Origin: Fibrobacter succinogenes
Lineage (GTDB): Bacteria; Fibrobacterota; Fibrobacteria; Fibrobacterales; Fibrobacteraceae
Assembly: GCA_902767785.1 (NCBI GenBank)
Contig: CACXIR010000018.1
Location: forward strand, 1 to 40,883
Reading direction: 5' to 3'
Length of the DNA: 40,883 nucleotides
Made by a program: the position numbers and the translations under genes. Every line of letters starts with the position of its first letter. Within the stretch, counting starts at the first letter, position 1. Positions 3,552-39,109 of the stretch are shown in pieces. Below the pieces are notes generated by a model. That model was not told the DNA's origin and did not search any database. It worked only from the letters and a program-made list of their open reading frames with translations.

Positions 3552-3559
3552 TATCTTTG
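3552..3559 (+). promoter_or_regulatory. Putative -7 box TATCTTTG for secDF
   Basis: Exact TAnnTTTG match 42 nt before the secDF ATG, with a weak CTGGAT 17 nt upstream. The 14 bases caaattactatctt (3544-3557) recur identically at 26093-26106 upstream of the CDF gene. Confidence 0.5.
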
Positions 3560-13373: not shown

Positions 13374-14228
13374 TTAGGCGGCTTCGTCCAGGAGTTTCTG
13401 GATACGTTCGTTCCGCAGTTTGGCAAGGGCGTTTTCCTTGAGCTGGCGGACCCGCTCCTTGGAAAGTCCCACCATGGGGGAGATTTCCTTCAGGTTCAGG
13501 TCGCTGTCCATCTTGAACCCGTAATAGAGCTTAAGGATGTCGCTTTCTTGGGAGGTCAGGTTTTCTTCCAGAACCTGTTCGTAAACGCGGGTCTTGTCGT
13601 TGCGTTCGGCAAGCTCTTCCACGGAACCGCTCTTGGAGGGCAAGCAGTCGCCCAGGGTGCAGTCGCCGTCTTCGCCGACGGGGGTGTCCAAAGAGGAGGT
13701 GCGGTTGCCCATCATCAACACTTTTTCGATGGCTTCGCCCTTGTACTTGGAAACTCCTTCCAGGCTGTCGGTGTCCAGCACGTAGCTTCCACCGACAACC
13801 TGTTTAAGTTTACCGCCCTTCTTGTTGAAACGGCGGAGGATAAGTTCTTTTTCGGCGCTGATACGCACCATGCGGCCTTTTTCGGCAATGGCGCGGGTAA
13901 TGTTCTGGCGCACCCACCACACGGCGTAGCTGATAAACTTGATTTTTTGATTGGGGTCAAAACGGCGGGCCGCTTCCATAAGGCCCATGTTGCCTTCGCT
14001 AATGAGTTCACCCACTTCCAGCCCTTGACCCTTGTAAAGGTTGGCGATGTTCACCACAAAGCGCAGGTTGGATTTTACCAGCAGGTCCAATGCTTCGCGG
14101 CTGCCGGCCTGGATTTTTTTCAGCAGCACCTTCTCCTGTGTGGGAGTGAGCAGCGCATAGGCAGAAATATCATCCAAGTAGGTGAAATAATTGCTTCTAT
14201 CGTCGCGGGTGTAGCAGTTGGCGTTCAT
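13374..14228 (-). CDS. Short sigma-70 family factor (RpoD/SigA-like, group 1 or 2)
   Basis: 284 aa RNA polymerase sigma factor without region 1.1. Region 1.2 occupies about 16-45 (YLDDISAYALLTPTQEKVLL). Region 2 is strong: NLRFVVNIANLYKGQGLEVGELISEGNMGL and KFISYAVWWVRQNI (about 54-110). Region 4 ends with LKEISPMVGLSKERVRQLKENALAKLR (about 243-270). Region 3 is unusual: it contains a basic glycine stretch (RRFNKKGGKLKQVVGG) and SYVLDTDSLEGV instead of the usual sigma-3 helices. Size and layout resemble the roughly 286-aa primary sigma of Bacteroidetes. aaggatt precedes ATG 14228. Whether it is the primary sigma or a group 2 factor cannot be decided from this window. Confidence 0.88.
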   Translation of the reverse strand: MNANCYTRDDRSNYFTYLDDISAYALLTPTQEKVLLKKIQAGSREALDLLVKSNLRFVVNIANLYKGQGLEVGELISEGNMGLMEAARRFDPNQKIKFISYAVWWVRQNITRAIAEKGRMVRISAEKELILRRFNKKGGKLKQVVGGSYVLDTDSLEGVSKYKGEAIEKVLMMGNRTSSLDTPVGEDGDCTLGDCLPSKSGSVEELAERNDKTRVYEQVLEENLTSQESDILKLYYGFKMDSDLNLKEISPMVGLSKERVRQLKENALAKLRNERIQKLLDEAA

Positions 14229-14253
14229 GGTAAATCCTTTTCCTTTACGCCTT

Positions 14254-14261
14254 TAAATCTA
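14254..14261 (-). promoter_or_regulatory. Putative -7 box TAGATTTA for the sigma gene
   Basis: TAnnTTTn box 25 nt before the sigma ATG. CTGACA lies 20 nt further upstream on the minus strand (14282-14287), longer than the 17-nt spacing seen at the best sites. Confidence 0.4.
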
Positions 14262-14370
14262 CCTCCGTTTAGGTTTCGGAGTGTCAGAAACTGCCCTAGC
14301 CCCTGCAAAAGTTTAATTTGTTTTTTGTCGGGAAAAATCGCTTTTTTGTCATAAAAGTGTCATTACGGGC

Positions 14371-14401
14371 TGTACAGGGAGCGCTTTTGGACCTATTTTT
14401 G
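14371..14401 (+). promoter_or_regulatory. Putative promoter TGTACA-N17-TATTTTTG for the histidine kinase
   Basis: The -7 box at 14394-14401 is an exact TAnnTTTG, with TGTACA (4 of 6 to TTGACA) exactly 17 nt upstream. It ends 5 nt before ATG 14407 with no Shine-Dalgarno, predicting a leaderless mRNA. Confidence 0.55.
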
Positions 14402-14406
14402 TCACT

Positions 14407-15606
14407 ATGGAACCTGAAGAGACTAAAAAGCCCATCCATAAACTGCGACAGAGGTGGCAGGGTGCCCAAGAAAGGGATTTTGACCGGTACGAGAAAAAAA
14501 TCCGTGAAATCCTGGAACAGGAGGAAAAATTATCTTTCCCTGTCCCGGCCTACGTACCCCAGATTCTCATCTTTCTTTTTATTCTTATTTTTCCTTTGCT
14601 CTACATCGGGGATCCGGTTACCCGTTCGGCAATCGGTTTGGACTGGCGAGAACTCATGAACTTCTATTTCCCCGTGCTGATGAGCATAGGGGTGTTCGGT
14701 CTTAACCTCAATTTTCTTGTTCCCAACTACATTCTCAACAAGCATTATGGAATTTACTTTGTATATAATGCTGTCGTTATTTTGGTAACCTGCATCTTGC
14801 GAGAAGTGGTGTTTTTTTTGATAGACAGGGCTCCTGATCAGGGGGTAAATTACTTTTTCAATTCCTACATGTTCTCTTCGGTAAAGGGGCATTTCAGCTA
14901 TTGGACCGTTTTTTCCTTTGTGGTGCTGGTTTGCCTGGTTTGCATTATCTGCGTGTTTTACCGTCTTATATCGGCACAGATTCTTCGTGGATTTGTGGTC
15001 AGGGAACAGAAACGCAGCCGTTTGCAATATGAACTGGAATTTTTGAAAAACCAGCTTTCGCCCCACTTTCTGTTCAATACCTTGAACAACATAACGGCAC
15101 TGATTTCCATAGATTCCAAGCGTGCTGAAAAATCCATGACGGAGCTTTCGAAACTTTTGCGGGTGACGCTTTACCAGACTTCTGATGACGCCATTCCCCT
15201 GGAAGAAGACGTGGAAATCCTCCGGATGTACGGGAACCTGGAAAAGCTCCGGCTAGACGAGAGTTTCGATTACCGATTCGATGTAGAAATGGAAGACCCG
15301 AAAACCCCGGTGGCGCCCCTGATAGCCATGCCCCTGGTGGAAAATGCCTTGAAGCACAGCAAGAACCCCAAGGGGAAAAGCTTCGCCCATATTACCATCA
15401 AGCAACAGGGTAACGAACTGGTTTTGCAAACGGAAAATTCCAATTTCCCGAAGGTGTCCAAGTCTCCCCAAAAGGCAAGCGGCCTAGGGCTTTCGACTTT
15501 CCAGAAACGCCTGGAGATTCTGTACGCGGGGCGTTATGAATATACGGCTTCCGCCGAGGGCGACGTGTACCGAAGCCGCCTAAAGATACAGCTCGCCGAC
15601 AACTGA
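14407..15606 (+). CDS. LytS/YehU-type sensor histidine kinase, orphan
   Basis: 399 aa membrane sensor kinase. A charged N-terminus (1-45) is followed by about four membrane segments (roughly 50-67, 85-105, 115-137, 165-195), a short coiled-coil linker, and the His_kinase domain of LytS-type proteins: LEFLKNQLSPHFLFNTLNNI with phospho-acceptor H220. The HATPase region has an N-box PLVENALKHS and a G-box SGLGLSTFQKRL. These kinases normally pair with LytTR-domain response regulators, but none is adjacent: the next gene converges. No dedicated extracellular sensor domain is visible, so the signal may be sensed in the membrane. It diverges from the sigma gene. Confidence 0.92.
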   Translation: MEPEETKKPIHKLRQRWQGAQERDFDRYEKKIREILEQEEKLSFPVPAYVPQILIFLFILIFPLLYIGDPVTRSAIGLDWRELMNFYFPVLMSIGVFGLNLNFLVPNYILNKHYGIYFVYNAVVILVTCILREVVFFLIDRAPDQGVNYFFNSYMFSSVKGHFSYWTVFSFVVLVCLVCIICVFYRLISAQILRGFVVREQKRSRLQYELEFLKNQLSPHFLFNTLNNITALISIDSKRAEKSMTELSKLLRVTLYQTSDDAIPLEEDVEILRMYGNLEKLRLDESFDYRFDVEMEDPKTPVAPLIAMPLVENALKHSKNPKGKSFAHITIKQQGNELVLQTENSNFPKVSKSPQKASGLGLSTFQKRLEILYAGRYEYTASAEGDVYRSRLKIQLADN

Positions 15607-15712: not shown

Positions 15713-17485
15713 TTACCGAGCGGCCAGTTCTTCTGGCGTGCGGCTGAGAATATCCCAGTCCCCGCGCTTGATAATCTTGTAGGCGTAACCCTGTTCGGTG
15801 AGGAACAGCTGGCGGTTCATGGAGAACTCCTGTTCCTTGGAATCCTGGGTGACGATGCTGTAGAAGTGGGCCATGCCGCCATCGCTCTTGGGGCGAAGGA
15901 TTCGGCCCAGGCGCTGGGCTTCTTCTTGCCGGCTTCCGAAGGTGCCAGAAATCTGGATAAGGATGTTGGCGTCGGGCAGGTCGATGGCGAAGTTGCCTAC
16001 CTTGGAGACCATCAGGTTCTTTTGCTCGCCATTGCGGAAGGCGGCGTAGAGCCTTTCACGTTCCTTGTTTGGGGTCTTGCCAGTAATCAGCGGAATCTGC
16101 AGGTCTTCGGCGAGGGCTTCTAGCTGGTCGATGTACTGCCCAATGATAAGCACCCGGTCGTCGGGCTTGTTGAAGTGTGCCAAAAGCCTCTCTACGATGT
16201 CCGTCTTTTCGGGATTGGTGCTGGCCAGGGTAATCTTTTCCCGGATGGGTGCCAGGGCGTATTTCATCTTGAGTTCCGTTTCCATGGGGATGCGGATCTC
16301 GTTGCAGTCGGCGGTGGCGATCCAGCCCTGGGCCTCCAGCACGCGCCAGGGAATGTCGTACTTTTTGGGTCCGATAAGGCTGAACACTTCTGTTTCTTTG
16401 TGGTCTTCGCGGACCAGCGTGGCTGTGAGGCCCAGGCGGCGGGTGGCCTGCATTTCGGTACTCAGGCGGAACACCGGGGCAGGCAGCAAATGCACCTCGT
16501 CGTAAATCATGAGGCCCCACTTTTGCTGGCTGAACAGCGGGAAGTTCGAGAGTTCCTTCTTGACTTCTTCGTCGGTCATGTCCGGAGCTTCCGGTTCACC
16601 CTGCTTGTTTTCGTCCTTGACCCGCTTGCGCTGGGTAAGGATCTGGTAGGTGGCCACGGTCACGGGGCCGATTTCCTTCACTTCGCCGGAGTATTCCTTT
16701 ACCATGTCTTCGGTGAGGTCGGTCTTGTCGCAGATTTCGCGAATCCACTGGCGGGAGGCGGAAATGTTTGGGGTCAGGATTAGGGTCTTGGTTTGGATAA
16801 GGGCCATGGTGGCAAGGCCAATGACCGTCTTTCCGGAACCGCAGGGCAGTACGATGACACCGGAGCCGCCTTTTTCCGAGCCGCTGGCGTAAAACACCTG
16901 GGCGGCCTCTTTCTGGTAGTCGCGAAGTTCGAACTTTTTGCCGGCCAGGGTGGTTTCCCTGAGCTTGATGGGCAGGGGGTCCCCCTGGATGTAGCCCGCC
17001 AGGTCCTCTACCGGGAACCCTGCGTTGGTGAGGGCCATCTTCAGGTGGCCGCGGCGCTCGGGGTCCACCTCGGCATGCTTGTCGTCCAGGAACTTGAGCA
17101 CGAAGGGTTCCACTTCCTTCAGGTGGCAGATTTCGGCGAACATGTAGGTGTCGTCGGATTCCAGGAGCAGCTTGTCGCCGTCCTTGCGGAGCCGCAGCAG
17201 CCCGTACCGGGCCATGTAGTCTTCCACTTCGGTTATTACGGTCTGGGGTATGGGGTAGCGGCTCTGGCTGTCCAGCCGTTCCAAAACTTCGGGTGCACGG
17301 AGTCCGGTGGCGGCCGCGTTCCAGAGGCTCAAGTGCGAAATCTTGTAGGTGTGCAGGTGTTCGGGACTCTTGACCAGTTCAGTAAAGGGGGCGATTGCGT
17401 CCCGTGCGGATTCGTAGTTGGGATTGTCTACCTCGACCATGATTTCGAGGTTGCTCTGTACAATAATGGCGCCATTGGGATTCAT
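15713..17485 (-). CDS. XPB/Ssl2-type SF2 DNA helicase
   Basis: 590 aa. The N-terminal half (about 1-190) is the helicase-associated domain of bacterial XPB proteins (IVQSNLEIMVEV, then SLWNAAATGL). The SF2 core follows: Walker A PCGSGKT with K219, DEVH box at 329-332, TATLVREDHKE carrying the RED motif that XPB uses in DNA unwinding, then the second RecA-like domain ending in QRLGRILRPK (motif VI). Eukaryotic XPB opens DNA in repair and transcription; bacterial versions are 3'-5' helicases of unclear role, sometimes paired with the nuclease Bax1, which is not seen here. A charged insert (about 290-312, rich in Lys/Glu) precedes the DEVH box. ATG 17485 is preferred; an upstream in-frame start would run into the tRNA terminator. 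Confidence 0.9.
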   Translation of the reverse strand: MNPNGAIIVQSNLEIMVEVDNPNYESARDAIAPFTELVKSPEHLHTYKISHLSLWNAAATGLRAPEVLERLDSQSRYPIPQTVITEVEDYMARYGLLRLRKDGDKLLLESDDTYMFAEICHLKEVEPFVLKFLDDKHAEVDPERRGHLKMALTNAGFPVEDLAGYIQGDPLPIKLRETTLAGKKFELRDYQKEAAQVFYASGSEKGGSGVIVLPCGSGKTVIGLATMALIQTKTLILTPNISASRQWIREICDKTDLTEDMVKEYSGEVKEIGPVTVATYQILTQRKRVKDENKQGEPEAPDMTDEEVKKELSNFPLFSQQKWGLMIYDEVHLLPAPVFRLSTEMQATRRLGLTATLVREDHKETEVFSLIGPKKYDIPWRVLEAQGWIATADCNEIRIPMETELKMKYALAPIREKITLASTNPEKTDIVERLLAHFNKPDDRVLIIGQYIDQLEALAEDLQIPLITGKTPNKERERLYAAFRNGEQKNLMVSKVGNFAIDLPDANILIQISGTFGSRQEEAQRLGRILRPKSDGGMAHFYSIVTQDSKEQEFSMNRQLFLTEQGYAYKIIKRGDWDILSRTPEELAAR

Positions 17486-17492
17486 AGGGCGC

Positions 17493-17500
17493 CAAATATA
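17493..17500 (-). promoter_or_regulatory. Putative -7 box TATATTTG for the helicase gene
   Basis: Exact TAnnTTTG, ending 7 nt before ATG 17485. The usual -35 place is taken by the T-run and stem of the tRNA terminator, so promoter and terminator overlap. Confidence 0.5.
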
Positions 17501-17501
17501 G

Positions 17502-17529
17502 AAAAAAAACGCACTCCCGGAGGAATGCG
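17502..17529 (-). terminator. Terminator of tRNA-Thr
   Basis: Minus strand: 8-bp stem cgcattcc / gggagtgcg-type pairing with one T-G wobble and a TCCG tetraloop (17510-17529), followed by eight T (17502-17509). It lies 7 nt beyond the tRNA 3' end. Confidence 0.85.
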
Positions 17530-17536
17530 TCTTTCG

Positions 17537-17609
17537 AGCCACCCAGCAGATTTGAACTGCCGACCTGCTGATTACGAATCAGCTGCTCTACCAGCTGAGC
17601 TAGAGTGGC
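17537..17609 (-). tRNA. tRNA-Thr (anticodon CGT)
   Basis: 73 nt on the minus strand, from GCCACTC to GGGTGGC plus discriminator T. The acceptor stem pairs with one wobble; the D arm (AGCTCAGCTGGTAGAGC-like), the anticodon arm GCTGA-TTCGTAA-TCAGC with CGT, and the T arm with GTTCAAATC are all visible. CCA is not encoded. Reads ACG codons. Confidence 0.96.
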
Positions 17610-17619
17610 ATAGCGGGGT

Positions 17620-17650
17620 CAAAAATAGCAATAGGCCTCTTTTTTGTCAA
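17620..17650 (-). promoter_or_regulatory. Promoter TTGACA-N17-TATTTTTG of tRNA-Thr
   Basis: The cleanest promoter in the window: a consensus TTGACA (17645-17650) exactly 17 nt from TATTTTTG (17620-17627), an exact TAnnTTTG, about 10 nt before the mature tRNA 5' end. Confidence 0.75.
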
Positions 17651-17667
17651 TATCGGGGGCTTTTCGG

Positions 17668-17698
17668 TTGGCAAGTTTACCAAAAATTTCTATGATTG
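17668..17698 (+). promoter_or_regulatory. Promoter TTGGCA-N17-TATGATTG of the TPR gene
   Basis: TTGGCA (17668-17673) exactly 17 nt from TATGATTG (17691-17698), one mismatch to TAnnTTTG, 29 nt before ATG 17728. Back to back with the tRNA promoter. Confidence 0.65.
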
Positions 17699-17727
17699 CT
17701 CTCAAAATTTCAAAATGGATGCATATT

Positions 17728-18414
17728 ATGGCTAACGAAGCGAATGCGAATAATTCTGAAATCAAGGAGTTCTTTGTCCATCACGGTACCAAGTTCCTGG
17801 TGGCCTTGATCGCCATCCTGGTGGTGGTTGCGGGCGTTGTGCAGGTGCGGGATTCCCGCAAGGCTGCCGCTGCCGAACAGGCCGAACTGCTGGGCACGGG
17901 AATGACCCTGCTCTATGCCGACGAAAAGGATAGCGCCCTTACGGAATTCGAGTCCAAGATCAACAGCCGTTCTCTGGAAGGCCTTGCTCTGGCTAAGGCT
18001 TGCCTCTATGCGGGCAACATCAAGTACGAAAAGGGTGATTTTGACGGTGCTGCCGCCTTGTTCCAGAAGTCTCTGGACAATGCCGGTTCCGTGGTGCTGG
18101 TTCGTTCCGCTGCCCTCCATGGTCTTGCCTCCGTGAAAATGGAAAAGGAAGACTATGCCGCTGCTGCGAACCTGCTGGAAAAGTACGTGAGCGAGTTTGG
18201 CAAGCGTACCGGCGACAAGGAAGACCGCTTCCAGAAAGAAGAACCCGTGGACGAGGCCCCCATGGTGGCCGACGCCATGTGGAAGTTGACCCTGGTGTAC
18301 CAGCAGCAGGGCCTTGCCGAAAAGGCCAAGAACACGGCTGAACGCCTGCTGGAGGTCTACGGCGACAACCAGAACTACGCCGACAAGGCCCAGAAGTTCC
18401 TGGCTTCCCTGTAG
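17728..18414 (+). CDS. Membrane-anchored TPR protein (YfgM-like)
   Basis: 228 aa. A short hydrophilic N-terminus is followed by one membrane segment (about 24-42, FLVALIAILVVVAGVV) and then tetratricopeptide-like helical repeats (about 60-225). Layout and size match YfgM/TPR_21 proteins, which in Escherichia coli associate with the Sec translocon and periplasmic chaperones; that role is inferred here. Ala-rich TPR motifs such as AGNIKYEKGDFDGAAALFQKSL and ASVKMEKEDYAAAANLLEKYV are visible. ATG 17728 is chosen because the upstream in-frame starts fall inside the promoter. A strong terminator follows, so it is probably monocistronic. Confidence 0.8.
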   Translation: MANEANANNSEIKEFFVHHGTKFLVALIAILVVVAGVVQVRDSRKAAAAEQAELLGTGMTLLYADEKDSALTEFESKINSRSLEGLALAKACLYAGNIKYEKGDFDGAAALFQKSLDNAGSVVLVRSAALHGLASVKMEKEDYAAAANLLEKYVSEFGKRTGDKEDRFQKEEPVDEAPMVADAMWKLTLVYQQQGLAEKAKNTAERLLEVYGDNQNYADKAQKFLASL

Positions 18415-22577: not shown

Positions 22578-22608
22578 TTGAGAAATTGTGCAATAAAAGC
22601 TAGATTTG
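22578..22608 (+). promoter_or_regulatory. Promoter TTGAGA-N17-TAGATTTG of tkt
   Basis: TTGAGA (22578-22583) exactly 17 nt from TAGATTTG (22601-22608), an exact TAnnTTTG, leaving a leader of about 25 nt that contains aaagagg (22628-22634) before GTG 22641. Confidence 0.68.
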
Positions 22609-39078: not shown

Positions 39079-39109
39079 TAAAGATAGATAGAAAAACGAC
39101 CGCGGTTAA
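39079..39109 (-). promoter_or_regulatory. Putative promoter TTAACC-N17-TATCTTTA of the hydrolase-acyltransferase operon
   Basis: TAnnTTTn box (39079-39086) with TTAACC (4 of 6 to TTGACA) exactly 17 nt upstream (39104-39109), ending 4 nt before ATG 39074. Predicts a leaderless mRNA. It follows the ileS terminator directly. Confidence 0.58.

Follow-up and report, generated by a model that had tools for sequence, protein, structure and literature searches.

The -35 and -10 elements of sigma-70 promoters in E. coli are separated by a spacer of 17 bases. Their consensus is TTGACA and TATAAT (PMC6847099), and the promoters read by the sigma-ABfr factor of Bacteroidetes are described as carrying TTTG at -33 and TAnnTTTG at -7, with T-12, A-11, T-8, T-7, T-6 and G-5 as the defining positions (PMC6847099, PMC7366714, PMC9723704). 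These reports also describe the -33 element of Flavobacterium johnsoniae as far less evident. In the present work, a 40,883-nucleotide stretch of Fibrobacter succinogenes (contig CACXIR010000018.1 of assembly GCA_902767785.1; hereafter the window) was analyzed together with the rest of its genome and with related genomes. We estimate at about three in four the probability that positions 17620-17698 hold two back-to-back promoters of a Fibrobacter dialect, TTGACA-N17-TATATTTG, likely read by a short sigma-70 protein that lacks region 1.1.

This region contains two divergent predicted promoters. On the minus strand, a -35 box TTGACA (17645..17650) and a -10 box TATTTTTG (17620..17627) form the pair TTGACA-N17-TATTTTTG, spanning 17620-17650, which faces a tRNA-Thr gene with anticodon CGT (17536..17609, minus strand; identified by ARAGORN and Rfam RF00005) and ends 10 bases before it. 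An XPB-type DNA repair helicase is encoded at 15713-17542 on the minus strand (NF045503, 806 bits). On the plus strand, TTGGCA (17668..17673) and TATGATTG (17691..17698) form the pair TTGGCA-N17-TATGATTG, spanning 17668-17698, upstream of a TPR-type gene at 17719..18414 (plus strand). Because alignments with most relatives begin only at residue 3 or 4 of the predicted product, the start of this gene may instead be the in-frame ATG at 17728. The initial annotation had placed two such sites between these genes, and both were found there, their boxes separated by exactly 17 bases. Unlike the tRNA consensus described below, which has T at -8, the -10 box of the TPR gene carries A at this position.

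Both predicted promoters leave a footprint across the genus, as does a third, TTGAGA-N17-TAGATTTG, located before tkt at 22578..22608 on the plus strand. The footprints of the first two were drawn from 30 genus loci, counting that of the window itself; these are the 30 best among 76 genomes with a match, out of 80 searched. The tkt footprint used 30 loci of 80 matching genomes, and all these loci belong to close relatives and are not independent. At the tRNA-Thr gene, TTGACA at N17 was retained in 30/30 loci and TAnnTTT in 30/30, with the final G in 26/30. At the TPR gene, the -35 box reads TTGGCA in 20 loci and CTGACA in the other 10 of 30, the -10 box reads TATGATTG in 29 and TATGTTTG in 1 of 30, and the spacer is 17 in all 30. 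At tkt, TTG[AT]GA-N17-TAnATTTG was kept in 30/30. Spacing of 17 was thus preserved at all three sites (30/30 each, own locus included) while the spacer itself drifted: pairwise identity among distinct sites was 0.85-1.00 in the boxes versus 0.52-0.59 in the spacer (for tRNA-Thr, computed on the 26 loci that retain the final G).

A spacing of 17 had also been proposed for six box pairs across the window. All six were found with exactly 17 bases, but only part of that proposal carries weight, since three of the hexamers, TGTACA before the gene at 14407, TTAACC before the hydrolase and TAGAAA before the macA-like gene, are not -35-like; they were set aside as -35 evidence, and at these genes the N17 spacing is trivial for that reason. 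The gene at 14407 is a counter-example in its own right, as TATTTTTG was found in 13/30 genus loci, the pair was not kept, and no -35 element was conserved across the 30 loci. This gene, designated a histidine kinase in the initial annotation, had no NCBIfam match. Its orthologues diverge fast, at 43-60% identity in most of the genus, and it stands head to head with a sigma factor gene across a shared gap (14229-14406) that retains TTGTCAT-like pieces, which are not a -35. The -10 boxes of the gene at 14407 (14394-14401) and of the hydrolase (39079-39086) stop only a few bases short of the assigned start codons, and may reflect leaderless transcripts or misplaced starts.

Boxes lacking a -35 had furthermore been listed before eight genes. 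With the patterns TAnnTTT[GA] or TAnnATTG and the gene starts predicted here, such boxes were confirmed before malQ, secDF, corA, the sigma gene, the helicase and the GT-C gene, an example without a -35 being TATCTTTG before secDF (3552..3559, plus strand). Neither pattern was found upstream of ctpA or of the gene at 2286, formerly called GH57, whose Pfam match is Alpha-amylase.

The clearest form of the signal was found at tRNA genes. A set of 48 upstream regions of first-in-cluster tRNAs was assembled, 28 from a relative (G001) and 20 from parts of the window's own assembly (G000; 2.53 Mb, 87.8% complete, with the window as contig 18) and of a second relative (G032), with orthologues kept in. 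Expectation maximization (EM) on this set yielded CCCTTGACA-N17-TATATTTGG, with the -10 region written out as TcTATATTTGg, spacer weights of 61% for N17, 20% for N16 and 8% for N18, and frequencies in TATATTTG of 0.76 for T-8, 0.98 for T-7, 0.93 for T-6 and 0.88 for G-5. The log-likelihood reached 374, versus 74.7 on average and 87.8 at most in 20 shuffled sets. A perfect TTGACA at N16-18 of TA...T was present in 16/48 regions (shuffled mean 0.1), and TTGACA with at most one mismatch in 26/48 (shuffled mean 1.0); by subset, the perfect and near-perfect counts were 9 and 17 of 28 in G001, and 7 and 9 of 20 in G000 and G032 together. The tRNA promoters of these three genomes also display CCC immediately upstream of TTGACA and GG following the -10 box. 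Two features of sigma-70 promoters can be compared on this basis: TTGACA with a spacer of 16-18 is present at tRNA genes and weak in mRNA genes, and a TATAAT -10 is absent as the consensus.

Enrichment of TAnnTTTG upstream of genes over shuffled sequence, the check proposed in the initial annotation, was observed in the window and in all three genomes. Within the window, the 120-nt stretches preceding 27 predicted gene starts contain 6 copies of the motif, a count reached by 1/200 shuffles; mid-gene controls gave 0, and the opposite strand of these stretches, with divergent genes counted, gave 5. The full TTGACA-N17-TAnnTTTG occurs once in the window and in 0/50 shuffles. For the genomes, a simple gene finder of our own supplied 343, 175 and 181 upstream regions from G000, G001 and G032, which held 68, 29 and 49 copies of TAnnTTTG, respectively, versus 31.2, 17.1 and 16.4 after shuffling. 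In co-directional gaps, the sense:antisense ratios were 23:11, 19:3 and 25:4. TATAAT was not enriched in the same unmasked regions (23, 12 and 9 versus 17.7, 11.9 and 9.3), and TTGACA by itself was clearly enriched in only one of the three genomes, G001.

These unmasked sets held some tRNA promoters, which were considered as a contaminating source of the signal. Removal of tRNA genes together with the 100 nt before them touched 22 regions, and the results held with smaller numbers. In the same genome order, masked regions contained 59, 28 and 48 copies of TAnnTTTG versus 30.0, 17.8 and 17.3 in shuffled sequence, and TATAAT remained unenriched (23, 12 and 9 versus 18.9, 10.9 and 8.8). The combination TTG-N20-TAnnTTT was counted 14, 5 and 9 times, versus 3.5, 1.9 and 1.6 in shuffled and 10, 5 and 4 in antisense sequence. 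A model-free scan of TTG positions before TAnnTTTG peaked at N20 both before masking (16 versus 3.4, sd 2.1; 142 boxes) and after it (13 versus a background of 3.0, sd 1.9; 135 boxes). The tRNA matrix, applied to masked co-directional mRNA upstreams, scored higher in sense than in antisense (p 8e-7 to 8e-6) and than in shuffled sequence (p 6e-4 to 1e-2); scores above 8 were rare, with sense and antisense counts of 3 and 1 of 148, 2 and 1 of 99, and 3 and 0 of 86 regions, and the matrix thus transfers to mRNA genes only modestly.

A two-box EM search over 626 mRNA upstreams led to the same -10. Seeds of TATAAT and of TATATT both converged on TATATTT, and a TTGACA seed for the -35 left the TTG-N20-TA position (equivalent to TTGnnn-N17-TA) with 58% of the gap weight. 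When the -35 was left unseeded, TTG at N20 emerged in the pooled TATATT run (51%), in G001 (40%) and in G032 (46%), and was not recovered in the pooled TATAAT run or in G000 alone; the -35 of mRNA genes is weak. The log-likelihood was 295, versus 183-224 in six dinucleotide-shuffled sets, none of which gave a TATATTT box, and tRNA-masked upstreams returned the same motif from both -10 seeds with a log-likelihood of 270. A drifted TATAAT as the -10 element was rejected on the basis of the counts together with the departure of the EM from its TATAAT seed to TATATTT. A weak E. coli control (132 regions, own gene finder) produced T-12, A-11 and T-7, with A at 0.38 and T at 0.12 at -8, and its only bearing is that TAnnTTT is not an invariable output of the method.

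Compared with E. coli, the Fibrobacter promoters share TTGACA and the 17-base spacer, but their -10 is TATATTTG, with T in place of A at -8 and an additional T-6 and G-5. Compared with Bacteroidetes, they share the -10 core TAnnTTTG, present in the tRNA consensus TATATTTG, as well as a TTG at about equal distance, but not the replacement of TTGACA by TTTG at -33: Fibrobacter tRNA promoters have a full TTGACA after CCC, and their -10 ends in GG rather than GC. The Bacteroidota sequences examined here reproduced the -7 element as TAccTTTGC (444 upstreams from pooled loci), TActTTTgca (197 upstreams of the genome LGM1) and TAtcTTTGCA (LGM1 tRNAs), although in mRNA upstreams the EM reached it only from TANNTTTG seeds and one pooled TATATT seed. 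In these sequences, TTG was over-represented at N20 before TAnnTTTG as well (13 of 156 boxes; mean 3.8, sd 2.8), so that the hybrid does not constitute a new spacing. The suggestion that the -35 geometry departs from that of the Bacteroidetes -33 was not supported, as TTG lies at N20, about the same place, in both; the difference resides in the strength of the -35 and in the base after TTTG.

This shared geometry gives some room to the explanation that the sites are plain Bacteroidetes -33/-7 promoters, in which TTGACA is merely a good TTTG and no separate dialect exists, and a common -10 core TAnnTT and identical sigma residues (I, S and V at E. coli positions 428, 429 and 432) point the same way. 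We consider it unlikely in view of the tRNA genes, where near-perfect TTGACA at N16-18 precedes 26/48 genes in Fibrobacter versus 2/26 in LGM1 (perfect in 1/26), the only Bacteroidota genome represented for tRNAs, and where the base after TTTG is G in 16/48 and C in 4/48 in Fibrobacter versus C in 23/26 in LGM1. Two further lineages, the Gemmatimonadota genome bin486 and G002, from another class of Fibrobacterota, share TTG and TAnnTT with Fibrobacter at their tRNA promoters, but have a weaker ACA (TTGACA perfect in 0/22 and 1/24, with at most one mismatch in 3/22 and 5/24, respectively) and lack the TTTG end (TAnnTTTG in 0/22 and 1/24); the spacing in G002 is one base longer. The proposal of a hybrid promoter was retained in restricted form: TTGACA with a Bacteroidetes-like -10 is recurrent, conserved and clearest at tRNAs, but is no rule for all genes.

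The proteins that might read this dialect were sought among sigma factors. A search with s1, the short sigma-70 protein encoded in the window (13374..14228, minus strand), detected three such proteins in each of G000, G001 and G032, the other two of G000 being located at G000:C22:4912-5757 and G000:C23:5915-6724. Proteins s1, s2 and s3 have 270-284 amino acids and start at region 1.2, thus lacking region 1.1, and their region 2.3 is altered, as in the Bacteroidetes sigma-ABfr system. Among 29 sigma proteins of these phyla, a partly selected set, as one search used the peptide FISYAVWW, position 428 (E. coli numbering) is I in 28 and T in one, and positions 429 and 432 are S and V in 29/29; the corresponding residues are S, T and T in E. 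coli and in the closest solved SigA (7l7b). Residue 428 presumably lines the pocket of the flipped -7 T. The flipping of A-11 and T-7 into sigma is described in two studies (PMC4496690, PMC3753650). In region 4.2, E585, R588 and Q589 are kept in 29/29, as in E. coli, whereas position 584 varies, with K in s1, R in s2 and H in s3. Region 4.2 was not supported as the cause of the strong -35, as Bacteroidota keep the same three residues and s3 has H at 584; because the three are invariant in the set, sequence alone does not explain the strong -35.

The window's s1 was the obvious reader, but was set aside because s3 is far more conserved. The latter is 91-100% identical in 67/67 genus genomes (own included; one match is a 184-residue fragment) and 61-73% identical in the class outside the order. 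In contrast, identity of s1 is 58-85% across the other genus genomes listed, with no match at that level in G099; its closest named relative, from an uncultured Fibrobacter, is 66% identical, and this relative groups with the same-genus sequences in the tree. There, G002 contributes relatives of s1 and s2 as well as a SigA-like protein, and s3 lies on a very long branch; no close counterpart of the SigA-like protein was present among the matches of G000 (87.8% complete), G001 and G032. From these comparisons, s1 is probably not the primary sigma, and s3 is the likeliest candidate, by conservation and elimination.

The presence of three sigma-70 proteins in each genome, together with a strong -35 that is clearest at tRNA genes, would also accommodate a division of labor in which s1 or s2 acts as an alternative stable-RNA sigma for the TTGACA form and the primary sigma reads TAnnTTT only. 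This appears improbable, since tkt and the TPR gene also keep conserved -35 boxes and mRNA upstreams masked for tRNA genes still show an excess of TTG at N20. Chance or composition, by which AT-rich gaps (GC 0.40-0.42 upstream versus 0.50-0.54 for all sequence) would generate functionless TAnnTTTG and TTG strings or drifted TATAAT, the latter present in 5/48 tRNA upstreams, is very improbable given that TAnnTTTG is enriched and TATAAT is not, that dinucleotide-shuffled sets did not yield the motif, and that footprints are conserved at tRNA-Thr, TPR and tkt.

Under the favored reading, a Fibrobacter dialect, TTGACA-N17-TATATTTG would be recognized by RNA polymerase bound to a short sigma-70 that lacks region 1.1, with s3, the most conserved of the three, as the main reader. 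Region 4.2 of sigma would grip TTGACA roughly as in E. coli, while the I, S and V of region 2.3, which replace S, T and T, would favor T at positions -8, -7 and -6 and G at -5. Promoters of stable RNAs, where strong, would possess a full -35, and many mRNA promoters would rely on the -10 alone.

Accordingly to the sequences compared, many tRNA genes and some protein genes of Fibrobacter and a close relative are preceded by TTGACA at about 17 bases from a TATATTTG-type box, and these are predicted promoters. No Fibrobacter promoter consensus or TTGACA/TAnnTTTG class was found in full-text searches of a library with few subscription journals. It is conceivable, at somewhat less than even odds, that Fibrobacteria gave up a canonical SigA and that the near-invariant 270-residue s3 runs housekeeping transcription through a third dialect, CCCTTGACA-N17-TATATTTGG, half sigma-70 and half Bacteroidetes, which would preserve a step in the parting of the Bacteroidetes promoter from TTGACA/TATAAT. 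A usable consensus would aid expression tools and the engineering of these bacteria by indicating which start signal to use, and the dialect might explain why E. coli or Bacteroides promoters fail in Fibrobacter. As the -35 and -10 resemble different parents, the contributions of sigma region 4 and region 2 become separable, and how the unusual Bacteroidetes promoter arose could be tested by swapping sigma residues.
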